DNA of 64,000 nt, taken from NCBI RefSeq assembly GCF_026341035.1, contig NZ_JAPEOQ010000001.1, positions 3,286,001-3,350,000 on the forward strand, read 5' to 3'. Shown in pieces: positions 51,175 through 64,000 of the stretch. Below the pieces are notes generated by a model that saw only the letters and a program-made list of their open reading frames with translations, was not told where the DNA came from and did no database searches. This stretch comes from Streptomyces sp. NBC_01016. GTDB lineage: Bacteria > Actinomycetota > Actinomycetes > Streptomycetales > Streptomycetaceae. Within the stretch, counting starts at the first letter, position 1; the number at the start of each line of letters is the position of its first letter. The translations under genes were made by a program, and so were the position numbers.

Positions 51175-52149
51175 TCAGCGCCGCGCCAACCGCACCGCCA
51201 ACTCGAACGCGTTCCGGATCGACCCGGTGTTGGCCGCCCCCCGTCCGACCAGGTCGAACGCAGTGCCATGCGCCGGCGTACAGATCGGAATCGGCAACCC
51301 ACCCGCGATGGTCACACCCCCGTCGAAGCCCATCAGCTTCATCGCGATCTGCCCCTGGTCGTGGTACATCGTCAGCACCCCGTCGAACTCCCCGGCCCGC
51401 GCCTTCAGAAAGATCGTGTCGGAGGGGAACGGCCCGCTCAGGTCGAGCCCACCCTCGCGCAGGTCGCGAATCGCGGGCGCGATGATGTCCAGCTCATGAC
51501 GGCCGAAGCGCCCGTTCTCACCCGCGTGCGGATTCAGCGCACACACCCCGATACGTGGCACCCCGACCCCCGCGCCCCGCAGCACCCGGTCCAGGAGCCG
51601 CCCCGCCTCCGTGACCCGTTCGTATGTGATCCCGGCGTCGACCTCGGCGATGGAGACGTGCGAGGTGACGCGCGCGGTCCACAGACCGGGCACCACGTTG
51701 AGCTCGGAGGTGAAGGAGTCGACGCCCAACTCCTCCTCGAACCACCGCAGTTCATCGCTCTGCGTCATCCCGGCCAGATGCAACGACGACTTGTTGAGCG
51801 GAGCGAAAAGCATCGCGCCGACCTCACCCGTCCGCGCCAGATCGAGCCCGGTCTTCAGACGGTCGAGCGCCCAGCGCCCGCCCTCCGCCGTCGCCGCCTT
51901 GCGCTGGAAGCCGCCACTCGGACGCTCGGGCGCGGGTCCCGGATGCAGCAACTCCCGTGCCCAGCCCAGGTCCACGCCCGCGTCCTCGCCCGCCGAGCGC
52001 AGCTCCTCTTCGTCGGCGAGGAGCACGAGATCGGCGGCCGCACGGGTCTTCGGGGCGTCGAGCAATCGGGCCACCAGCTCGGGCCCGATTCCGGCCGGGT
52101 CGCCGAACGTCACAGCCACACGCGGAAGTTCAGAAGTCTGCGTACTCAT
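51175..52149 (-). CDS. PdxA-type 4-phosphate dehydrogenase (PdxA2-like)
   Basis: A 324-residue PdxA-fold NAD-dependent enzyme. VAVTFGDPAGIGPEL, APLNKSSLHLAGMTQSDEL and CALNPHAGENGRFGRHE are the conserved blocks, and MYHDQGQIAMKLMGFD and TPAHGTAFDLVGRGAAN give the metal His/Asp and product region. Canonical PdxA makes part of vitamin B6. PdxA2 versions oxidise and decarboxylate 4-phospho-threonate or -erythronate to dihydroxyacetone phosphate. Here the partners (tripartite importer, sugar isomerases, GntR) point to the catabolic PdxA2 role. The 4-bp ATGA overlap with tctA shows it is in the transporter operon. Confidence 0.85.
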   Translation of the reverse strand: MSTQTSELPRVAVTFGDPAGIGPELVARLLDAPKTRAAADLVLLADEEELRSAGEDAGVDLGWARELLHPGPAPERPSGGFQRKAATAEGGRWALDRLKTGLDLARTGEVGAMLFAPLNKSSLHLAGMTQSDELRWFEEELGVDSFTSELNVVPGLWTARVTSHVSIAEVDAGITYERVTEAGRLLDRVLRGAGVGVPRIGVCALNPHAGENGRFGRHELDIIAPAIRDLREGGLDLSGPFPSDTIFLKARAGEFDGVLTMYHDQGQIAMKLMGFDGGVTIAGGLPIPICTPAHGTAFDLVGRGAANTGSIRNAFELAVRLARR

Positions 52150-53675
52150 GAGGTCTTCTCCGGAGTCTTGGGTTCGGGGGCCTCTGCGGCCTCGGGGACG
52201 GTACGTGCGCGGCGCAGCCTGCGGGTCACCGGCGGGCCGGCCACCAGCACCACGGCGAGCGCCAGGATCGTCACCGCGGCCGGGCTGTGCAGGATGAGCA
52301 GGGAGTCCTCGCCCGACAGTGCCGACGTCTGAACCAGCGCCTTCTCGAACAGCGGGCCGATGACCAGGCCGAGGACGAGCGGCGCCACGGGGAAGTTGAG
52401 CCGCTTCATCGCGTAGCCGACGAGCCCGAAGAACAGCACGATCCAGATGCTGAACATGCTGTTCTTCACCGAGTACGCGCCGATCAGCGAGGTCACGATG
52501 ATCAGCGGGTACAGGAACGCGTAGCGCACGCGCAGGAGTTGGGCGAAGACCGGCGCCAGCGGCAGGTTGAGGATCAGCAGCAGAAGGTTGCCGATGAAGA
52601 AGGAGACCAGCAGGCCCCACACCAGCTCCGGCTGGTTCTCGAAGAGCAGCGGGCCCGGCTGGATCCCGTAGACGAGGAACGCGCCGAGCAGTACCGCCGT
52701 CGTCGCGCCGCCGGGGACGCCGAGGACGAGGGTCGGCACGAAGTTGGCGTTGGAGGCGGAGTTCGTGGCCGCGTCCGGGGCGACGACGCCCTCGATGGCG
52801 CCGGTGCCGAGCTGCTTGCGGTTGCGGGAGAACCGCTTCTCCGCCCCGTACGCCATGAACGACGCGAGCGTCGTGCCCGCGCCCGGCAGACAGCCGAGGA
52901 GGAAGCCGAGGACGGTGCCGCGCGCGGTCGGGGCGGCCGCCCGCTTCAGGTCCTCCTTCGTCAGGAGCAGATCGCGGAACCGGGCCCGGATCGGCTCGGC
53001 CATGCCGATGTGCAGCTGGTTGAGCAGCTCGCCGATCGCGAACAGGCCGATCATGACCTCGACGAACGGGATGCCGCCGAACAGGTCGATCTGGCCGAAC
53101 GTGTAGCGGGGCGTGCCGCTGCCGCCGTCCACGCCGACGCAGCCGATGAGCACGCCGGTGAGGCCGAGCGCCATGCCGAGCAGCAGATTGCGGCCCGAGA
53201 AGACGACGATCGTGCACAGGCCGAGGATCATCACGGCGAGCATTTCGGGCGGCCCGAAGTCGAGCGCGAGATGCGCGAAGAACGGGGCCACCGCCATCAG
53301 CGCGATCAGCGACACCATCGCCGAGACGAACGCGCCGAGCGCCGAGATCGCGAGCGCGGGACCGGCTCTCCCGGCCCGTGCCATGCGATAGCCGTCGAGG
53401 GTGCTGACCACCGATGACGCCTCGCCGGGCGTCGCGATGAGGATCGCGGTGATCGTCGCCCCGAACTGGGCGCCGTGGTAGATCCCGGCCAGCATGATCA
53501 GCGCGGTGAGCGGCGAGAAGGTGAGCGTGACCGGGATCAGGATGGCGACACCGGTCGCCGAACCGAGCCCCGGCAGAATGCCGATCACGGTGCCGAGGAG
53601 CACGCCGACGAAGCACCACAGGACGTTCTCGGGGCTGAGCGCCGCACCGAATCCGGTGACGAGATGGTCGATCAC
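52146..53675 (-). CDS. tctA: Tripartite tricarboxylate transporter, large membrane subunit (TctA)
   Basis: A 509-residue TctA protein with about 12 helices. The family signatures are GILPGLGSATGVAILIPVTL, YHGAQFGATITAILIATPGE and LLGCLPGAGTTLASFMAYGAEK. GVVAPDAATNSASNANFVPTLVLGVPGGATTA is the duplicate motif. It forms the sodium-driven channel with TctB and receives the solute from the lipoprotein TctC. The GTG start at 53675 overlaps the tctB stop (GTGA). Confidence 0.93.
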   Translation of the reverse strand: MIDHLVTGFGAALSPENVLWCFVGVLLGTVIGILPGLGSATGVAILIPVTLTFSPLTALIMLAGIYHGAQFGATITAILIATPGEASSVVSTLDGYRMARAGRAGPALAISALGAFVSAMVSLIALMAVAPFFAHLALDFGPPEMLAVMILGLCTIVVFSGRNLLLGMALGLTGVLIGCVGVDGGSGTPRYTFGQIDLFGGIPFVEVMIGLFAIGELLNQLHIGMAEPIRARFRDLLLTKEDLKRAAAPTARGTVLGFLLGCLPGAGTTLASFMAYGAEKRFSRNRKQLGTGAIEGVVAPDAATNSASNANFVPTLVLGVPGGATTAVLLGAFLVYGIQPGPLLFENQPELVWGLLVSFFIGNLLLLILNLPLAPVFAQLLRVRYAFLYPLIIVTSLIGAYSVKNSMFSIWIVLFFGLVGYAMKRLNFPVAPLVLGLVIGPLFEKALVQTSALSGEDSLLILHSPAAVTILALAVVLVAGPPVTRRLRRARTVPEAAEAPEPKTPEKTS

Positions 53676-54205
53676 AGCTGGCTCCAGACGGCGGGGTCGA
53701 AGAGACCGAACGGCAGCGGGATGCCGAGGATCGTGATGAACAGCAGATAGGACACGGCGAACACGAGCACCGCCACGAGCACACTGCGCGCGAGCGGCTG
53801 ACGCTCCACAACCGCCGTGAGGAACAAGGTCATCAGGGTCAGCGCGGGCAGCAGCCCGAGGAACGGCACGAGCAGCGCGGTGACCACCATCGTCACCACG
53901 ACCACGATCAGCTTCGTGCGAACCCGCTGCGCCTCCTCGGCGCCGACCTCGGCCGCCTCCTCGACGTGCCCGTCGCCCTCCAACACCGAGCCCGTACGCA
54001 GTTCCTGACGCACCAGCAGCAGGCCGAGGACGGCGAGCAGCAGGCCGGCCGTGCGAGGCATCACGCCGGCGCCGATGGTGCCGTCCTCCGGCTGGGTCCA
54101 CGGATAGGCGAAGGAGCCCGCGAAGAACAGCGTGCCGAGCGCGGTCAGTACGCCGTACGCGATGAGGACCGGGCGGCGCGCCCGCGCCGGGATGGGGGTC
54201 GTCAC
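53672..54205 (-). CDS. tctB: Tripartite tricarboxylate transporter, small membrane subunit (TctB)
   Basis: A 177-residue protein with four hydrophobic segments (LIAYGVLTALGTLFFAGS, GLLLAVLGLLLVR, LIVVVVTMVVTALLVPF, LVAVLVFAVSYLLFITIL), separated by an acidic loop (EEAAEVGAEEAQR). Size and topology match TctB. GTG at 54205 overlaps the tctC stop. Confidence 0.85.
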   Translation of the reverse strand: MTTPIPARARRPVLIAYGVLTALGTLFFAGSFAYPWTQPEDGTIGAGVMPRTAGLLLAVLGLLLVRQELRTGSVLEGDGHVEEAAEVGAEEAQRVRTKLIVVVVTMVVTALLVPFLGLLPALTLMTLFLTAVVERQPLARSVLVAVLVFAVSYLLFITILGIPLPFGLFDPAVWSQL

Positions 54206-55176
54206 TTGAGGTCCTCCTTCACCTGGGCGTCGTACGTCTTGAGATACGCGGCGAACTCCGGGCCGCTGCGGTGGGCGGGCGTGAGCATGTCGGCCTTCAG
54301 GTACGCGTGGTACGCCTTCGACTTCATGGCCCGCTCCAGCGACCTGATCCAGTACCTGCGCTGTACGTCGTCGATCCCGGCGGGCGCGAACACCCCCCGC
54401 CACAAGGTGACTTCGGCATCCAATCCCTGCTCCTTGGCCGTCGGAACCTTGCCGAGGACCGGGTCGTCATAGCGCTTCGCGGTCATGGTGCACAGCGCCT
54501 TCATGTCACCGCTCTGCAGATACGGCTTCGCCGACGAGGCGCTGGAGGGCGCGATGTCGATCTGCTTGCCGAGCAGCCCGGTCAGCACCTCGCCGGTCGA
54601 GCCGTAGGGCACGACGCCGAACTTCCCGCCCTGCTTCTTGAACTTGCCGATCACCAGCGCGTCCGCGCCCGTCTTGCCGCTCGACCCGGTGACGACACGC
54701 TTCTCGCGCGCGGCCCGCACCACGTCCGGGCAGGTCTTGTACGGGGAGTCCTTGCGGGCCACGACGATGCGGGAGTCCTCCGCGAACATCATCAACGGCG
54801 TGAACGACTTGTACGTGAACGGCACGTCGTACACGAGCGGGAGCGTGTTGAGGGCGCCCTCCGCGACGAGCAGCGCGTTGCCGTTGCCCTCCTCGGCGAG
54901 GAAGCCGGCCCAGCCGACGGCGCCCGAACCACCCTCCTTGTTCTCGACGTTGACGTGATAGCCGCCGTCGAGCTCATTGAGCCCCTGAGCCATCACACGC
55001 GCCGAGCGGTCGCTGCCGCCACCCGGCGCGAACGCGACGAGCGCGGAGACCGAGCCGCGCGGATGCCAGTCCTTCGGCACCTCGGGGGTGGCGTTGAGCA
55101 AGGTGCACGAGGTGAGTGCGGTGACCAATGCCGTGGCTCCGGCGAGACGGCACGCCGCACGCAGTGGTGACGTCAT
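54202..55176 (-). CDS. tctC: Tripartite tricarboxylate transporter, solute-binding lipoprotein (TctC)
   Basis: A 324-residue TctC/Bug-type binding protein. The lipoprotein signal ends ALVTALTSC, with the lipidated Cys at about residue 24. VSALVAFAPGGGSDRSARVMAQ, VENKEGGSGAVGW and VPYGSTGEVLTGLLGKQIDIAPSS are Bug-family features for a carboxylated ligand. It is the first gene of the operon tctC-tctB-tctA-pdxA. AGGAAGG precedes the ATG at six bases. The promoter carries a GATCCTATGGGAT element shared with the isomerase operon. Confidence 0.9.
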   Translation of the reverse strand: MTSPLRAACRLAGATALVTALTSCTLLNATPEVPKDWHPRGSVSALVAFAPGGGSDRSARVMAQGLNELDGGYHVNVENKEGGSGAVGWAGFLAEEGNGNALLVAEGALNTLPLVYDVPFTYKSFTPLMMFAEDSRIVVARKDSPYKTCPDVVRAAREKRVVTGSSGKTGADALVIGKFKKQGGKFGVVPYGSTGEVLTGLLGKQIDIAPSSASSAKPYLQSGDMKALCTMTAKRYDDPVLGKVPTAKEQGLDAEVTLWRGVFAPAGIDDVQRRYWIRSLERAMKSKAYHAYLKADMLTPAHRSGPEFAAYLKTYDAQVKEDLK

Positions 55177-55199
55177 CGTCGACCTTCCTGCGGATCCGA

Positions 55200-55212
55200 G
55201 ATCCTATGGGAT
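55200..55212. promoter_or_regulatory. Putative GntR operator upstream of tctC
   Basis: GATCCTATGGGAT (55200-55212) is a near-palindrome 24 bp upstream of the tctC start. It is almost identical to GATCCTATAGGGTC at 56111. Both flank the GntR gene at 55324-56055. Confidence 0.65.
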
Positions 55213-55323
55213 ATGGCCGTGACCGTAGGTGTGCCGAAGGAGCCATGACAAGAGGCGTGCGTGAATTGCCGCCGTGCAAGCGGAAGTTGACCTTGGAGTG
55301 CGTCTCGCCGCTACGCGCCGTTG

Positions 55324-56055
55324 TTACGCGTCATCGAGCGAGCGCCGCTCGACACCCTCCAGGTGCGTGCGCATCGCGCGGGCCGGCGCCTCGGGGTCGC
55401 CGGACTCGAACGCGGCGAGGATCGCGGTGTGCTCGGCGATGGCCTGGTCGATGTCGAACGTGCCGTGGTCGACGGTCTGCCGCATCCGGTGCACGTGCGC
55501 GCTCAGCGACTCGGCCATCGCCGCCATGAACCGGTTCTGCGCCGCCTGGATGATCAACAGGTGGAACGCCCAGTCGGCGGCGAAGTACTCGCGCAGATCG
55601 GAGTTGTCGGTGGTGGTGCTGTGCGCTTGGTCGCCGCCGCGCAGCTTGCGCACGCGGTGCGCCGCGAGCACATGACGGGCGTGCGCGGCCTGCAGCTCCG
55701 GCACCAGGTCCTCGGTGTGCGCGAGGGCCCGCTCCACCGCGCCGAGTTCCAACATGATGCGGGCGTCGAAGAGTTCGGTGACCTGCTCGGGGGAGAGTGG
55801 CGGCGCCACCTTGTACCCCTTGAGCGCGACCCGGTTGACCAGACCCGTGTGCTCCATTTGAACGAGCGCCTCGCGCACGGGAGTTGGTGACACCCCCAGC
55901 TCGCGGGCGAGCGAGTCGATGCCGAGCGAGGAGCCGGGCGGCGTCGAGCCGTCGAGCAGCTTCTCCAGGATCGCGTCGTACACCCCGTCGCGCAGCGCGC
56001 GGCGTTCCACGAGCGGGGAGTTGGGGCTCTGTGGGTGCGTGCTCTTCGGGGTCAT
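55324..56055 (-). CDS. GntR/FadR-family regulator
   Basis: A 243-residue FCD-type GntR regulator. The winged helix is AILEKLLDGSTPPGSSLGIDSLARELGVSPTPVREALVQMEHTGLV. The FCD domain (90-235) has LFDARIMLELGAVERALAH, DWAFHLLIIQAAQNRFM and HTAILAAFESGDPEAPARAMRTHLEGVERR. The metal- or ligand-binding His/Asp residues are present. It lies between the divergent transporter operon and the isomerase operon and is presumably their common repressor, released by a pathway intermediate. Confidence 0.9.
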   Translation of the reverse strand: MTPKSTHPQSPNSPLVERRALRDGVYDAILEKLLDGSTPPGSSLGIDSLARELGVSPTPVREALVQMEHTGLVNRVALKGYKVAPPLSPEQVTELFDARIMLELGAVERALAHTEDLVPELQAAHARHVLAAHRVRKLRGGDQAHSTTTDNSDLREYFAADWAFHLLIIQAAQNRFMAAMAESLSAHVHRMRQTVDHGTFDIDQAIAEHTAILAAFESGDPEAPARAMRTHLEGVERRSLDDA

Positions 56056-56110
56056 CTCGCCGTCCAGGTTATCCGAGGGGGAGTGCGGACAGTCTGTCGG
56101 GGACAGAATA

Positions 56111-56124
56111 GATCCTATAGGGTC
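56111..56124. promoter_or_regulatory. Putative GntR operator upstream of the isomerase operon
   Basis: GATCCTATAGGGTC (56111-56124) is a near-perfect palindrome between the GntR start and the isomerase start. It overlaps the probable promoter of both. Confidence 0.7.
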
Positions 56125-56167
56125 TACGATTCAGTGAGGACCGTTCAGGCCGACGAGGGAGTCGCCC

Positions 56168-57112
56168 ATGCCGCCCACCGTCCACCGCGCTTCGCCCCGC
56201 ACTTCCCGTGACTGGCCCATCGGCGCCGCCCTCCTCCAGTTCCCCGACGCCCACAACGCGCCCACGACGCAGTGGAGTTCGGTACTCGGCGAGGTGGCGG
56301 GCGAGGGCTTCGACCACGTCGACCTCACCGACAGCTGGGTGCGCCCCGGCGACCTCGACGCCGACCGCAGGGCCGAACTCGCCCGCGCGCTCAAGGAGTC
56401 GGGCCTCGGCGTCACCGCGATCTCCGCGATCCGCCGCAGCGTCATCGACCCCGACGAGGACGCGGCCCGCGCCCACCTCGCGTACCTCCTGCGCACGATC
56501 GACGCGGCCGCCGACCTCGGAACCGGCGTCGTATCGGTGGGCCTGCACCGAGAGTTGACGCAAGCGCAACAGGAAGCACTCTGGTTCTGGCACGAACAGG
56601 GCGCCACCGACCCGATCGGCGACTTCCGCACCTGGGAACGCGCGGTCACCCGCCTGCGCGAACTCGGCGAACGCGCCGCCCAGCACGGCATACGCCTGTC
56701 CCTGGAGATGTACGAGGACACCTACCTCGGCACGGCCGACAGCGCGGTCTCCCTCGTCACCGACATCGATCTCCCGAACGTCGGCCTCAACCCCGACATC
56801 GGCAACCTCGTCCGCCTGCACCGCCCGGTCGAGGACTGGCAGTCCATGCTGCGGAAGACCCTCCCGCACACCAACTACTGGCACATCAAGAACTATTACC
56901 GCGACCACGACCTGGCCACCGGCGCCTACTTCACCCACCCCGCGCCCTGCGAAGGCGGTGTCATCGACTACCGGCGCGCCCTCGCCATGGCCCTGGAGTG
57001 CGGCTTCGACGGCCCGATCTGCGTCGAGCACTACGGCGGCGACGGCCTGGGCGTCTCGGCCGCCAACCGCGACTACCTGCGACGTGTGCTGCGCGCCCGC
57101 ATCGGGGAGTGA
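56168..57112 (+). CDS. Sugar phosphate isomerase/epimerase (xylose-isomerase-like barrel)
   Basis: A 314-residue TIM barrel. The metal ligands are Glu in LSLEMYEDTYLG, Asp in LNPDIGNLVRL, His in YWHIKNYY and Glu in CVEHYGGDG. It probably isomerises or epimerises a hydroxylated 3-6 carbon compound. In acid-sugar pathways a related barrel enzyme (OtnI/YgbM type) isomerises 2-oxo-tetronates. Its operon partner is the TPI-like gene 51 bp downstream. Confidence 0.8.
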   Translation: MPPTVHRASPRTSRDWPIGAALLQFPDAHNAPTTQWSSVLGEVAGEGFDHVDLTDSWVRPGDLDADRRAELARALKESGLGVTAISAIRRSVIDPDEDAARAHLAYLLRTIDAAADLGTGVVSVGLHRELTQAQQEALWFWHEQGATDPIGDFRTWERAVTRLRELGERAAQHGIRLSLEMYEDTYLGTADSAVSLVTDIDLPNVGLNPDIGNLVRLHRPVEDWQSMLRKTLPHTNYWHIKNYYRDHDLATGAYFTHPAPCEGGVIDYRRALAMALECGFDGPICVEHYGGDGLGVSAANRDYLRRVLRARIGE

Positions 57113-57162
57113 TCCGGGTGGAAGACCGCCCCCATCACCACGTACGAGCAGGAGGACAGCAC

Positions 57163-57888
57163 GTGAGCCGCTGGATCGGGACCAGTTTCAAGATGACCAA
57201 GACCCGTTCCGAGGCCGCGAGTTACGCGGCACGTGTGCGGGCCGCGGTCGGCGACGGCATCGACGGCGTGCAACCCTTCCTGATCCCCTCGGCGACCGCC
57301 GTCTCCGCCGTCGCCGACACCCTCGGCCCCGGCTCGCCCGTCCTGACCGGCGTACAGAACGCCCACTGGGAAGACGCGGGCGCCTGGACCGGCGAGATCT
57401 CGGTGCCGCAGGCCGCCGACGCGGGCGCCCGGCTCGTCGAGATCGGGCACTCGGAGCGGCGCGCCCACTTCGCCGAGACCGATGAGACGGTCCGCCTCAA
57501 GACGGCCGCGGCCCTGCGCCACGGCCTCACCCCGCTGGTCTGCGTCGGCGAGGACGCGGCGGCCAGGGACGCGGGGCGCGGCGCCGACGTCGTACGCGCG
57601 CAGGCCGAGGCGGCGCTCGAAGGCCAGTCGGACCCGGGAGCGGTGCTGCTCGCCTACGAACCGGTCTGGGCGATCGGCGAACACGGCCGGCCGCCCCGCC
57701 CCGAGGAGATCGCCCCCGCCCTCGCGACCCTCGCCGAACTCCCGGCGCGCGCCGTGCTGTACGGGGGATCGGTCGACCTGGCGAACGCGCCGTGGCTGCT
57801 TGAGCTGCCAGGTGTGCAGGGGCTGTTCGTGGGGCGGGCGGCTTGGGATGTGGATGCGTTTTTGAAGTTGCTCGCTCTGGGACTGTGA
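57163..57888 (+). CDS. Triosephosphate-isomerase-like enzyme (tetrulose-phosphate type)
   Basis: A 241-residue TPI-fold protein. The catalytic Lys is in SFKMTKT, His in EIGHSERR and Glu in LAYEPVWAIG; LYGGSVDLAN is the phosphate loop. True TPI begins with NWKMN, whereas this one begins WIGTSFKMTKTRSEA. That is the form I associate with EryH/LerI-like isomerases of erythrulose 4-phosphate. The gene context also argues against glycolysis. GTG at 57163 has GGAGG seven bases upstream. Confidence 0.8.
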   Translation: MSRWIGTSFKMTKTRSEAASYAARVRAAVGDGIDGVQPFLIPSATAVSAVADTLGPGSPVLTGVQNAHWEDAGAWTGEISVPQAADAGARLVEIGHSERRAHFAETDETVRLKTAAALRHGLTPLVCVGEDAAARDAGRGADVVRAQAEAALEGQSDPGAVLLAYEPVWAIGEHGRPPRPEEIAPALATLAELPARAVLYGGSVDLANAPWLLELPGVQGLFVGRAAWDVDAFLKLLALGL

Positions 57889-59499: not shown

Positions 59500-61134
59500 T
59501 CAGATCTGTGGGCGGGCCCGTTCCGCCAGTGCCGTCAGGTCCAGCGTGTGCGGCAGTGTTCCGAAGCCCGCGCCCCTGTCGCCCCCGAACCGCGCCGCGC
59601 AGAACGCGTCCGACACGTCGTCGGGTCCGTACCGCGCGAGCAGCGAACCCTGGAGTACCAACGCGATCCGCTCCGCGATCCGGCGCGCCCGCGCCTCGAT
59701 GCCGTCCAGGTCGCCGAGTTCGGTCAGCAGATCCTTCACCGCCGCGTCGAGCCGGTGATCGGCGCCGCGCGCCTTGCCGATCTCGATCAGGAACGCGTTG
59801 AGCGCCTGCGGCTCCCGCTGCAACGCCCGCAGGACGTCCAGGGCCTGTACGTTCCCCGCGCCCTCCCAGATCGAGTTCAGCGGTGACTCGCGCAGCAGCC
59901 TCGGCATGCCGGACTCCTCCACGTACCCGTTGCCGCCGAGGCATTCGAGGGCCTCCGTCACCAGCGGCGTACAGCGCTTCGTCACCCAGTACTTGGCCGC
60001 GGGCACCGCGATCCGCAGGAAGGCACGCTCCTGCTCGCCCCCGTCGTCGTACGCCGCCGCGAGCCGCAGCGCGAGTGTCGTCGCGGCCTCCGACTCCAGG
60101 GCCAGATCCGCCAATACGTTGCTCATCAGCGGCTGGTCGGCCAGCTTCGCGCCGAACGCCTCGCGGTACGCGCAGTGGTGGGTCGCCTGCGCCACCGCCT
60201 GCCGCATCAGGGCCGCGGAGCCGAGCACGCAGTCGAGCCGGGTCGCCGACACCATCTCGATGATGGTGCGCACCCCGCGCCCCTCCTCGCCGACCCGGCG
60301 CGCCCACGTCCCGTCGAACTCGACCTCGGCCGACGCGTTGGACCGGTTGCCCAGCTTGTCCTTCAGGCGCTGGAGGGCGAACGGGTTGCGGGTCCCGTCC
60401 TCCAGGACGCGCGGCACGAGGAAACAGGTGAGGCCCGCGCCGGTCTGCGCGAGCACCAGGAAACCGTCCGACATCGGCGCGCTGCAGAACCATTTGTGGC
60501 CGGTGAGCGTGTACGTCCCGTCCTCGGACAGGGGCACGGCCCGCGTCGTATTGGCCCGTACGTCGCTGCCGCCCTGCTTCTCCGTCATCGCCATGCCGAA
60601 GAGCGCACCGGCCTTCTGTCCCGCGGGGCGCAGCCCGGAGTCGTAGACCGGGGACGTCAGCAGGGGCTCCCACACGGCGGCGAGGTCCGGCTCCGCGCGC
60701 AGCGCGGGCACCGCCGCGTGCGTCATCGACAGCGGGCACAGGTGTCCCGCCTCCACCTGCGACCACACCAGGAACGCGGCGGCGCGCCGCAGATGACCTC
60801 CCGGCCGCGTCCACGCCGACGTGAGCCCCGCCGACACCCCCTTGCCCAGGAGCCGGTGCCAGGCGGGATGGAACTCCACCTCGTCGATCCGGTGGCCGTA
60901 GCGGTCGTGGGTGCGAAGGCGCGGCGGGTTCTCGTTCGCGAGCCGGCCCCACTCCTGGGCCTGCGTCGACCCGGCGGTGCGGCCGAGCAGTTCGAGCTCG
61001 GCCCCGACCTCGGCCAGCAGGTCGGGGGCCAGATGCCGCCGCACACCCCCGACGAGGGCCGCGTCGGCGCTGTAGACGTCGTACCCGGTCAGCGGCGGGG
61101 GCTGATTGGTGACCGTGTGTGTGCTGCCTGCCAT
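59500..61134 (-). CDS. AidB-like acyl-CoA dehydrogenase
   Basis: A 544-residue flavoprotein of the acyl-CoA dehydrogenase superfamily; the length and layout match AidB (about 540). FGMAMTEKQGGSDVRANTT is the FAD-binding loop, TGHKWFCSAPMSDGFLVLAQT the middle strand, and ECLGGNGYVEESGMPRLLRESPLNSIWEGAGNVQALDVLRAL the C-terminal FAD site. AidB itself is a DNA-alkylation-response protein; other members are isovaleryl-CoA-like dehydrogenases. No ada or alk genes are next to it, so the function is open. Confidence 0.85.
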   Translation of the reverse strand: MAGSTHTVTNQPPPLTGYDVYSADAALVGGVRRHLAPDLLAEVGAELELLGRTAGSTQAQEWGRLANENPPRLRTHDRYGHRIDEVEFHPAWHRLLGKGVSAGLTSAWTRPGGHLRRAAAFLVWSQVEAGHLCPLSMTHAAVPALRAEPDLAAVWEPLLTSPVYDSGLRPAGQKAGALFGMAMTEKQGGSDVRANTTRAVPLSEDGTYTLTGHKWFCSAPMSDGFLVLAQTGAGLTCFLVPRVLEDGTRNPFALQRLKDKLGNRSNASAEVEFDGTWARRVGEEGRGVRTIIEMVSATRLDCVLGSAALMRQAVAQATHHCAYREAFGAKLADQPLMSNVLADLALESEAATTLALRLAAAYDDGGEQERAFLRIAVPAAKYWVTKRCTPLVTEALECLGGNGYVEESGMPRLLRESPLNSIWEGAGNVQALDVLRALQREPQALNAFLIEIGKARGADHRLDAAVKDLLTELGDLDGIEARARRIAERIALVLQGSLLARYGPDDVSDAFCAARFGGDRGAGFGTLPHTLDLTALAERARPQI

Positions 61135-61170: not shown

Positions 61171-62151
61171 TCACCCGCTGTGCGTCAGTGCGGTCTCACG
61201 CTCCCGTTCCGGCCACGCGAGGTCGTCGTGCGGCCAGCCGGGGCGGTAGACGGTGTCGAGGTAGCGCTCGCCGAAGTCAGGGGCGATCGCCACCGAGGTG
61301 AGTCCGCGCCGCCCGTGCCGGGCCAGCCACTGCTCGGCGCCGCACACCACGGTGCCGGTCGACCCGCCGAACAGGAAACCCCGGCCGGCGAGCGTGCGGC
61401 ACGCGTGCAGCGCGTCCGCCTCGTCGACGTGCACCACGTCGTCGATGTACGAGGTGTCGAGCAGCGGCGGCCGCACACTGGCGCCGAGGCCCGGGATGAG
61501 CCGGCGCCCGGCGGGCCGGCCGAAGCTCACCGAGCCGACACTGTCGACGGCGACGATGCGCACCGGGCGCCGCCACTGCCAGAACCAGCGGGCACACCCC
61601 ATCAGGGTGCCCGTCGTCCCCGCCCCGACGAACAGCACGTCCAGGCGCGGGAAGCGGTGGGCGATGGCCGGAGCCGTGGTGCGGAAGTGCGCCCGCCAGT
61701 TGTGCTCGTTGCTGTGCTGGTCGAGCCACACGTACCGGTCGTCGGTCGCGCACAGCGCCCGCACGTACGCGAGCCGGGCCGCCAGCAGACCGCCGTGCGC
61801 CGCCGGTTCGCGCACCACGTGCACATGACTGCCGAGCGCCTCCATCAGCCGGATCGTCGGCTGGTTGCAGCGGTCGTCGGTCACGCACAGGAACCGATAT
61901 CCGCGGTGCGCCGCGATGATGCTGAGCGCGAGGCCCAGATTCCCCGACGACGACTCGATGAGGACCCGGCCGGGCCGCAGCCGACCGTCGCGCTCGGCCG
62001 CGTCGACCATCTCGGTGGCGGCCTTCAGCTTGATGGATCCGGCGAAGTTGAACCCTTCGCACTTGAGGAAGAGCGGCAGGCCGAGGGCCCCCCGCAGATC
62101 GACGTACAGCTCTTCCTCGTTGAACTGTGCGGGATCGTCAATGACTGGCAT
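61171..62151 (-). CDS. sbnA: 2,3-Diaminopropionate synthesis enzyme SbnA (PLP)
   Basis: A 326-residue PLP-dependent enzyme of the cysteine-synthase fold. SbnA condenses O-phospho-L-serine with L-glutamate to N-(2-amino-2-carboxyethyl)-glutamate. The PLP lysine is in FNFAGSIKLKAATEM, with the phosphate-binding ESSSGNLGLALS and the Gly-rich loop FVGAGTTGTLMG. LKCEGFNFAGSIKLKAA fits the SbnA subfamily rather than CysK. It is 57 bp after sbnB, with the same orientation. Together with SbnB it supplies 2,3-diaminopropionate for a peptide natural product or siderophore. Confidence 0.9.
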   Translation of the reverse strand: MPVIDDPAQFNEEELYVDLRGALGLPLFLKCEGFNFAGSIKLKAATEMVDAAERDGRLRPGRVLIESSSGNLGLALSIIAAHRGYRFLCVTDDRCNQPTIRLMEALGSHVHVVREPAAHGGLLAARLAYVRALCATDDRYVWLDQHSNEHNWRAHFRTTAPAIAHRFPRLDVLFVGAGTTGTLMGCARWFWQWRRPVRIVAVDSVGSVSFGRPAGRRLIPGLGASVRPPLLDTSYIDDVVHVDEADALHACRTLAGRGFLFGGSTGTVVCGAEQWLARHGRRGLTSVAIAPDFGERYLDTVYRPGWPHDDLAWPERERETALTHSG

Positions 62152-62208
62152 GACGTGCGCCGCCCCCCTCCTGCATGTGTCCCCCGTGTTCCATGTCCTT
62201 CCCGCCCT

Positions 62209-63237
62209 TCAGCCGTGCCGTCGCAGTTCGTGGAAGAAGCCGTCCACGACGTGCAGGTGGCCGCGCCGGGCCACTTCGTCGTGGACGTACCGCCCGACGG
62301 CCAGGTCGAGTACCCCGAGCCCGAACGGCGAGAACACCACCGTCCTGTCGCCCGGGACATCGACACGACCCGTCAGTACGTCGTCGAGCGTGCCGTCGAT
62401 GAAGTCCCTTCCTCCGGTGAGTTGTTCGGCCAGGTGCGGTGAGGTGTCCGCCTTGAGGCAGTGCTCGATGTCGTCCACGAAGTTCGCGCTCTCGAGCAGG
62501 ATCTCGGGTGCGAGATCGCGCAGCGACACATGCAGCACCAGTGGATGGTGTGCGAACCAGGCCGGGTCGTGGATGTGCGGTTTCGCCGTGACCGTGGCGA
62601 AGACCACCAGGTCGCTGGTGCGGATGAGGGATTCGGCGGTCTCGTGCACCGTGATCCGTCCCTTGGTGCCCGCCCGCTCCAGATAGCCGCGGAACCCGGC
62701 CGCGCTCTCCGCCGACACGTCGTGCACACCCGTGTCCTCGAACTCCTGGCCGGTCGCCGCGAGATGGGTGTGGATGTGCCGGGCGATCAGTCCGGTGCCG
62801 ACGAAGCCGACGCGCCGCGGGCGCGCCCGGCCCCGGCCGAGCCGGTCGGCCGCGAGTGCCGCGGACGACGCCGTGCGTGTCGCGCTGATCACCGAACTCT
62901 CCAGGCACGCGTACGGATAGCCGGTGTCCGGGTCGTTGAGGATGAGCACGGCGGAGGCGCGCGGCAGCCCCGAGCGGGTGTTCTCCGGGAAACTGGAGAT
63001 CCACTTGATGCCGTCCGTGCGCAGCGGCCCGCCGAGCGAGGCGGGCAGCGCGATGATCCGTGCGCTCGGTCGGTCAGGGAACCGCAGGAAGTACGAGGGC
63101 GGGTTCACGGTGTCGCCCGTCCCGTGCAGCCGGTACACCGCCTCGATCAGCTCGGCGATCTCCAACTCGTGGCCGGTTACGATCCGTTGGACCTGTTCGC
63201 CGGATATCACGGCGAACCGCGGTGCGGCGGCGGTCAT
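62209..63237 (-). CDS. sbnB: 2,3-Diaminopropionate synthesis enzyme SbnB (dehydrogenase)
   Basis: A 342-residue ornithine-cyclodeaminase/mu-crystallin-fold NAD enzyme. It oxidatively cleaves the SbnA product to L-2,3-diaminopropionate and 2-oxoglutarate. VGFVGTGLIARHIHTHLAATG is the Rossmann motif, and NPPSYFLRFPDRPSARIIALPASLGG and GIKWISSFPENT are SbnB-like. The start at ATG 63237 overlaps the stop of the oxygenase gene (ATGA). The true substrate-binding Arg/Lys pattern is that of SbnB rather than of ornithine cyclodeaminase, as far as can be read. Confidence 0.9.
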   Translation of the reverse strand: MTAAAPRFAVISGEQVQRIVTGHELEIAELIEAVYRLHGTGDTVNPPSYFLRFPDRPSARIIALPASLGGPLRTDGIKWISSFPENTRSGLPRASAVLILNDPDTGYPYACLESSVISATRTASSAALAADRLGRGRARPRRVGFVGTGLIARHIHTHLAATGQEFEDTGVHDVSAESAAGFRGYLERAGTKGRITVHETAESLIRTSDLVVFATVTAKPHIHDPAWFAHHPLVLHVSLRDLAPEILLESANFVDDIEHCLKADTSPHLAEQLTGGRDFIDGTLDDVLTGRVDVPGDRTVVFSPFGLGVLDLAVGRYVHDEVARRGHLHVVDGFFHELRRHG

Positions 63238-64000
63238 CCGGTGACCGCCTCGACGGTCGGCTTGCAGTCCGCGAGCCGGACCGGGTCGGCGAGCGCGACG
63301 AGCACCTCGCGCGGCCCGTCGAACGGCTCCCGGCTGTGCGCGGTGCGGATGTTGTCGACGAGCAGCAGGTCGCCCCGCTGCCACCGGGTGCGCAGGGTGT
63401 GCGCCTCGTACACCTCGTTGAGGGTGCGCACGACGTCCTCGTCGAGCGGATCGCCGTTGCCGTACAGGGTGTTGAAGGGCAGCCCGTCGGCCCCGTACTC
63501 GTCGACGAGGTACTCGCGGACCTCCGGCTCCATCGTCCACTGGCTCAGGAACGCGATCTGGTTGAACCAGACCGGGGCGCCGTCGCGCGGATGACGGAGT
63601 ACGGCGCTGCGCCGCTGCCGGGTGCGCAGCGAGCCGTCGTCCTGCCAGGCGAACTCGATGGCGTGGGCGCGGCAGTAGGCCGCGACGGCATCGCGGTCGT
63701 CGGTGCCGAACGCCTCGGCCACCGACGCGCCGAGCTCCTCGTGGTACGTCCGCGTGAGGATCCAGCCCTCCCGCTCGAACCGCTCGGCGAGCGGGGCGGG
63801 CAGTGCGCGCAGGACGGCCCGCGCGTCGGCGAGACCGGTCTCGCCACCGCTCGCGGACGCCTCCAGGCAGGCGAACTGCAGCAGCCCGGGGAACTCCAGG
63901 CAGTAGCTCAACTCATGGTGCATGCACATCGGTTGATTGGGTGGCCACTTGGTGGCGGAGTACACGCCGTCCGGGTACGTGCGGCGCGGCGCGAACGGCT
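63234..64000 (-). CDS. TauD/SyrP-like Fe(II)/2-oxoglutarate oxygenase (partial, cut by window edge)
   Basis: The C-terminal 255 residues of a TauD/TfdA-superfamily protein, the SyrP-like branch that hydroxylates beta carbons of amino acids in nonribosomal peptide pathways. QPMCMHHELSYCLEFP supplies the first Fe His and acid (HHE), and DNIRTAHSREPF the distal His. The N-terminus lies beyond the window. It is translationally coupled to sbnB. With SbnAB it forms the edge of a diaminopropionate-containing natural-product cluster; hydroxylation of aspartate, asparagine or a diamino acid is possible. Confidence 0.82.
   Translation of the reverse strand, partial: PFAPRRTYPDGVYSATKWPPNQPMCMHHELSYCLEFPGLLQFACLEASASGGETGLADARAVLRALPAPLAERFEREGWILTRTYHEELGASVAEAFGTDDRDAVAAYCRAHAIEFAWQDDGSLRTRQRRSAVLRHPRDGAPVWFNQIAFLSQWTMEPEVREYLVDEYGADGLPFNTLYGNGDPLDEDVVRTLNEVYEAHTLRTRWQRGDLLLVDNIRTAHSREPFDGPREVLVALADPVRLADCKPTVEAVTG

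Follow-up and report, generated by a model that had tools for sequence, protein, structure and literature searches.

What is made by the genes at the right-hand edge of a 64,000-nucleotide stretch of the Streptomyces sp. NBC_01016 genome? This stretch, referred to here as the window, comprises C2:3286001-3350000 of a 10.0-Mb, two-contig genome, and coordinates beyond 64000 continue its numbering. A preliminary description placed homologues of SbnA and SbnB and a SyrP-like oxygenase there, tightly linked and running off the end, and took them for the edge of a diaminopropionate cluster making a siderophore or a peptide antibiotic. The coordinates bear out the linkage, and just two further genes of the group lie outside the window, both of the nonribosomal peptide synthetase (NRPS) type. 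The window does reach into a biosynthetic cluster that carries genes for L-2,3-diaminopropionate (L-Dap), and the possibility that nothing biosynthetic follows the window has fallen away; the proposed product is not supported. Here, we report that five genes form one conserved unit, and we consider it probable that this operon makes a Dap-derived cationic polymer or oligomer, for which L-Dap would be loaded in trans, oxidized on a carrier and joined by a membrane polymerase.

The operon spans approximately 7.6 kb (Table 1). The genes for the Pls-type polymerase and the free adenylation-carrier (A-T) protein share an ATGA overlap, those for the TauD-family oxygenase and SbnB share another of four bases, and 57 bases separate SbnB from SbnA. 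Since the next upstream gene, which is BrkB-like, is divergent, the operon comprises five genes; no tandem repeats were reported within it. The Pls-type protein was scanned against one genome per species, and the best 80 of 89 relatives together with the window gave 81 rows, which were picked by similarity to one protein and so give co-occurrence, not frequency. All five genes stand together in 70 of the 81 loci, and the order polymerase, A-T, TauD, SbnB, SbnA is exact in 60 of these 70, 32 with a thioesterase (TE) domain and 28 without; L048 matches this order too, but for a stray opposite-strand hit. The 11 rows without the full set are fused Pls proteins without the cluster (L076, L077 and L082), loci on short contigs or at the ends of contigs (L032, L035, L069, L070 and L079) and loci with parts lacking or broken (L063, L084 and L085). 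Genera with all five genes include Streptomyces, Pseudonocardia, Actinoplanes, Geodermatophilus, Blastococcus, Arthrobacter and Actinomycetospora, and among named organisms the closest relatives of the cluster come from Streptomyces. No description of this cluster was found in the titles and abstract openings searched, subscription journals and preprints being outside the scope of that search.

The polymerase consists of one carrier and a Pls/PosA terminal domain (TIGR02353, 765.2 bits against a cut-off of 423.1, positions 1-695 of 695), and Pfam and NCBIfam scans detected no adenylation (A) domain in the same chain. Among 14 control genomes, the terminal-domain model gave weak matches in 13 and a match above the cut-off in one. 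Of the 96 hits of our model of the Pls carrier, 92 show the serine motif; in two of the remaining four, the serine stands in a variant of it. Streptomyces rows have one carrier each, except for a metagenome-assembled genome (L069) with two; two or three tandem carriers precede the terminal domain in Geodermatophilus, Blastococcus and Arthrobacter, in whose rows no A-domain match was found upstream of them. The polymerases of Pseudonocardia humida (L066), of Actinomycetospora (L078) and of a P. autotrophica plasmid (L116) still have an A domain, but its A3 motif is degraded, the first two being judged by eye; in L066 the C-terminal part of this domain is also missing, and a proline-rich stretch follows. 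Judged from these sequences, the polymerase looks to have grown dependent on a loading protein outside its own chain.

The A-T protein would be this loading protein. With a GrsA fragment as the reference, its ten pocket residues give the adenylation code DIWQSTADDK in 69 of 77 A-T rows; of the other eight, four deviate at one or two positions and four have an incomplete code. Trp occupies pocket position 3 (GrsA 239) in the window and in every A-T row covering that position. The code was not found in the literature searched. In the accessible part of PMC12283262, DVWHLSLVDK is given as a serine code, which has the position-3 Trp in common with it, and DVWQMIGDDK as the code for beta-hydroxylated diaminobutyrate, with which six of ten letters are identical. 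The two acidic residues towards the end of the code would suit a small cationic residue. Fused Pls relatives (L076, L077 and L119) have the code DFECLSVVTK, which agrees with the Phe at code position 2 reported, in the sections available of PMC10522769, for the synthetases of poly(diaminopropionic acid) (PDAP) and poly(diaminobutyric acid).

A TE domain is carried by the A-T protein in 35 of the 81 rows, and 34 of these domains show a GxSxG motif; the exception is a broken piece. The SyrC shuttle is of the cysteine type, and this serine motif led us to reject the TE as a SyrC-like shuttle. The TE domains do favour another explanation, in which the A-T protein and the oxygenase make one special starter or end residue, or a TE-released product, and the Pls carrier is loaded otherwise; the occurrence of an A-T relative in a different NRPS cluster (L117, below) points the same way. 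However, the window A-T protein has no TE, and among rows with the cluster (stray flank hits in L048, L054 and L078 left aside) an A-domain match upstream of the Pls carriers is found only in L066 and L078, both with the degraded A3 motif, so that we hold this explanation to be improbable. The A-T protein also bears the remnant of a condensation (C) domain. The first 235 residues of the L033 relative, a longer protein, match the condensation-domain fold (model predicted local distance difference test score, pLDDT, 88.1), with a Pfam match of 19 bits against a cut-off of 30.6 that spans just positions 190-277 of 456. The lobe that holds the catalytic histidines therefore seems to be absent. The window protein keeps about a quarter of the L033 stretch (64 residues matched), and this half-condensation domain is unlikely to form bonds.

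The identity of SbnA and SbnB is not a chance resemblance, since the adjacent genes both exceed the NCBIfam equivalog cut-offs (349.95 bits for SbnA, TIGR03945; 326.9 bits for SbnB, TIGR03944). As controls, 14 reference genomes were searched with the SbnA family, and all 14 had matches below the cut-off and none above; the window genome has 11 matches, among which the operon copy alone is above it. The closest solved chain to SbnA is that of Staphylococcus aureus SbnA (5d87, E 2.6e-58), and the solved relatives of SbnB include CmnK and alanine dehydrogenase. From their family membership, the two enzymes would together make L-Dap. A threonine-synthase-like PALP gene, below the family cut-offs, lies between SbnB and SbnA in Actinoplanes sp. 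TBRC 11911 (L057:17066-18229).

It was to clusters of the staphyloferrin B, viomycin or zwittermicin type that the preliminary description compared this locus, and two-enzyme L-Dap synthesis does occur in those pathways (PMC4668381, in the portion available). The rightward extension that it proposed, for NRPS genes or for synthetases of NRPS-independent siderophores (NIS), yielded the A-T and Pls-type genes but no NIS synthetase among the five. Staphyloferrin B and other NIS clusters have an IucA/IucC-type synthetase, which the five-gene cluster does not; the viomycin and zwittermicin type has complete C domains or polyketide synthase (PKS) modules, and is set apart here by Pfam domains, not by sequences. 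Pfam scans of the five genes detected no NIS synthetase, complete C domain, PKS or transporter. The nearest PF04183 (IucA/IucC-type) genes of the genome lie approximately 298 kb away (C2:3045178-3048896), and an NIS siderophore was rejected for this reason. Iron regulation was likewise rejected, as an iron-box pattern, with up to three mismatches allowed, had no match in the 20 kb around the operon (L004). The unit, moreover, ends at the AidB-like and BrkB-like genes. Without an NIS synthetase or a complete C domain among the five genes and without an iron-box match, there is no support for a siderophore or a multimodular peptide, a reading that we regard as very improbable indeed.

The metal ligands of the TauD/TfdA oxygenase are retained: H105-x-E107 and H299, and likewise R308, do not vary among 23 aligned relatives, and the pattern H-H/N-E is found in 71 of 74 oxygenase rows. 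A model of the L008 orthologue (mean pLDDT 86.9) has At3g21360 as its best structural match. The term 'SyrP-like' is fair for a TauD-family protein in an NRPS setting, although the label rests on the family and not on the SyrP sequence. The oxygenase fits an enzyme working on a carrier-bound residue, to judge by its sequence and by the genes beside its relatives; the beta-hydroxylated residue predicted earlier is a guess. A further explanation dispenses with this step and makes plain poly-Dap the product, the A-T protein replacing the missing A domain and the oxygenase tailoring an end residue or acting after polymerization. PDAP and its synthetase are known in Streptomyces albulus PD-1 (PMC4668381, in part), and oxidation of carrier-bound Dap is chemically awkward. 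Nevertheless, TauD genes stand beside an A-T gene without Pls on a plasmid of Kitasatospora sp. NBC_00039 (L117), where an A-T relative (58.5%, code DIWQATCDDK) adjoins a TauD relative (52%), and after Pls without a nearby A-T gene on the P. autotrophica plasmid; the oxygenase thus looks more than optional, and we consider plain poly-Dap unlikely.

The Kitasatospora NRPS cluster (L117:811-19240), which resembles ours in this A-T and TauD pair, differs in also holding an ArgH-family lyase, a GHMP kinase and a PALP/ATP-grasp fusion, along with AsnB and a racemase, and no Pls or SbnB match was seen in the stretch read; it is possibly another route to a diamino acid.

In the pathway that we favour, SbnA and SbnB would provide L-Dap, and the free A-T protein would activate it and hold it on its carrier, as the code and the gene company suggest. 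The TauD-type oxygenase would then modify the carrier-bound residue, which would pass to the carrier of the membrane-bound Pls/PosA-type protein; by analogy with Pls, PDAP synthetase and PosA, this protein would join residues successively into a short isopeptide chain. Several observations weigh against this pathway. SbnA has H and G where one S. aureus SbnA chain has Y and S, positions that we take to have a functional role in S. aureus SbnA and that vary among its solved chains in the alignments. The substrates of NjxA and NjxB are reported to differ from the S. aureus ones (PMC4668381, in the text available), and, in view of both points, the Dap-forming reaction may differ. The A code is not of the cationic homopoly(amino acid) (CHPA) type, because Trp replaces the Glu that the accessible part of PMC10522769 gives as conserved at pocket position 3 of CHPA synthetases; we therefore infer the Dap substrate partly from gene company. 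Transfer from carrier to carrier is unexplained where there is no TE, namely in the 28 of 81 rows with the arrangement of the window and in most multi-carrier rows. Relatives of the oxygenase (51-52%) lie beside other NRPS genes on two Streptomyces plasmids (L120 and L121), so the enzyme is tied neither to Pls nor clearly to Dap, and beta-hydroxy-Dap would be an unstable hemiaminal unless its beta-nitrogen were acylated. A carrier-Pls gene stands alone in a 22-kb stretch of a Streptomyces sp. CdTB01 plasmid (L118), and the 19.8-kb stretch of the P. autotrophica plasmid has Pls and TauD without A-T, SbnA or SbnB. Finally, the root of the tree is unsure and its branches are long, and the order 'fused first, split later' is thus not proven.

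Compared with known systems, the cluster most likely encodes a relative of poly(amino acid) synthetases that is split and loaded in trans, acts on L-Dap from SbnA and SbnB, and includes an oxidation step. The PDAP synthetase of S. albulus PD-1 also has a Pls-type terminal domain with a carrier, and its Dap also comes from cysteine-synthase-like and ornithine-cyclodeaminase-like proteins, NjxA and NjxB; there, however, a single gene of 4,338 bp encodes the A, carrier and terminal domains, the Dap genes do not lie near it, and the account, in the portion available, mentions no oxygenase, unlike the five-gene cluster (PMC4668381). The same kind of terminal domain, for which TIGR02353 is named, occurs in the epsilon-poly-L-lysine synthetase Pls and the delta-poly-L-ornithine synthetase PosA, which, as far as the accessible text of PMC10522769 goes, have the A domain in the chain and a pocket Glu, whereas in our cluster a different protein carries the A domain, with Trp in that place; on these two grounds we set the cluster apart from the Pls/PosA family proper. 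In modules of the SyrB1/SyrC/SyrE kind, a free A-T protein likewise supplies a synthetase without a working A domain, and in SyrB1 tailoring takes place while the free carrier holds the residue, as proposed here; but such modules feed multimodular peptide lines, while here a Pls-type polymerase would be fed and no SyrC-like shuttle was identified (PMC8949500, as partly available).

More tentatively, and as something possible rather than probable, the cluster may represent a separate class of poly(amino acid) synthetase, whose polymerase has lost its loading domain and works with one to three tandem carriers, fed in trans by the A-T protein and the oxygenase and making oxidized poly-Dap. Its repeat units would be N-acyl hemiaminal or dehydro-Dap, and we know of no report of such a polymer. 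In a sample of the genus, a Pls-type match at E 1e-150 is found in 50 of 150 genomes, three of which have an open frame of >1,390 aa that may be fused; if the proposal is true, about one in three Streptomyces species would have this separate synthetase class, and many of them could make a modified cationic polymer. The known natural homopoly(amino acid)s are few (PMC10522769, in part), and the way in which their membrane synthetases link residues is only partly understood. A loading protein split from the polymerase, with oxidation in between, would make loading, tailoring and polymerization separable for study, in a five-gene unit small enough for transfer to a laboratory host. The A-T protein itself is present in 22 of 61 genomes of the genus at E 1e-170 and in 11 of 396 genomes of the phylum at E 1e-100, eight of them, including that of the window, at ≥60% identity.

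Other Pls relatives were also seen. The window genome holds a second, fused Pls (C1:2996870-2998924, L088; 821.5 bits, code DAESIGTVVK), followed by a frame that by eye resembles an M1 aminopeptidase; this is possibly an epsilon-poly-lysine locus. Two plasmid relatives lie near metal and redox genes, namely cation diffusion facilitators, CopC and DUF305 in L118 and CcdA and DUF305 in Paenarthrobacter aurescens pTC1 (L119), and neither stretch has an SbnA or SbnB match.

The borders of the cluster were examined by comparing the best AidB-like and BrkB-like matches in 61 genomes of the genus, 60 of them with data. The two genes are 17-262 bases apart in 46 of the 60, which indicates that the cluster is a discrete unit; some of these 46 genomes carry it elsewhere. 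In three genomes (that of the window, G452 and G406) they are 8.1-9.5 kb apart, and in the same three the A-T protein lies between them. One genome has an interval of 1.8 kb (G418:C11:37922-39759), too short for the cluster and either a remnant or another insert. The genes are far apart on one contig in five of the 60, where the best AidB match is just 63-65% identical and may be a paralogue, and on separate contigs or with one gene missing in another five. We considered the AidB-like gene as a desaturase of the cluster (compare VioJ) and rejected this; as a neighbour of the BrkB-like gene in most genomes, it is a chromosomal neighbour, not a member.

Table 1. Genes of the operon and its borders, in window numbering.
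Feature	Position	Strand	Description
AidB-like acyl-CoA dehydrogenase	59500-61134	-	PF18158 AidB_N, E 3.2e-54; downstream border
SbnA homologue (PALP)	61171-62151	-	326 aa; terminal gene of operon; TIGR03945, 365.0 bits
SbnB homologue (ornithine cyclodeaminase/mu-crystallin family)	62209-63237	-	342 aa from ATG; TIGR03944, 404.8 bits
TauD/TfdA Fe(II)/2-oxoglutarate oxygenase	63234-64232 (window part 63234-64000)	-	332 aa; PF02668, E 3.3e-44
A-T protein (C-domain remnant/A/carrier)	64279-66315 (outside window)	-	678 aa; Pfam/NCBIfam profiles
Pls-type protein (carrier + Pls/PosA terminal domain)	66312-68741 (outside window)	-	809 aa; TIGR02353
BrkB-like gene	69197-70357 (outside window)	divergent	Upstream border

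No dedicated regulator or exporter emerged from the flanks of 38 of the 80 relatives, in which no family beyond the five genes is common to more than eight loci; the two families at eight loci are frames opposite cluster genes, and the next two are at six. Elsewhere in the window, translations read by eye at 52146-57888 include a tricarboxylate-transporter-like set, a GntR-like regulator, a TIM-barrel isomerase-like gene and a triosephosphate-isomerase-like frame, which suggests a sugar-acid catabolic locus.

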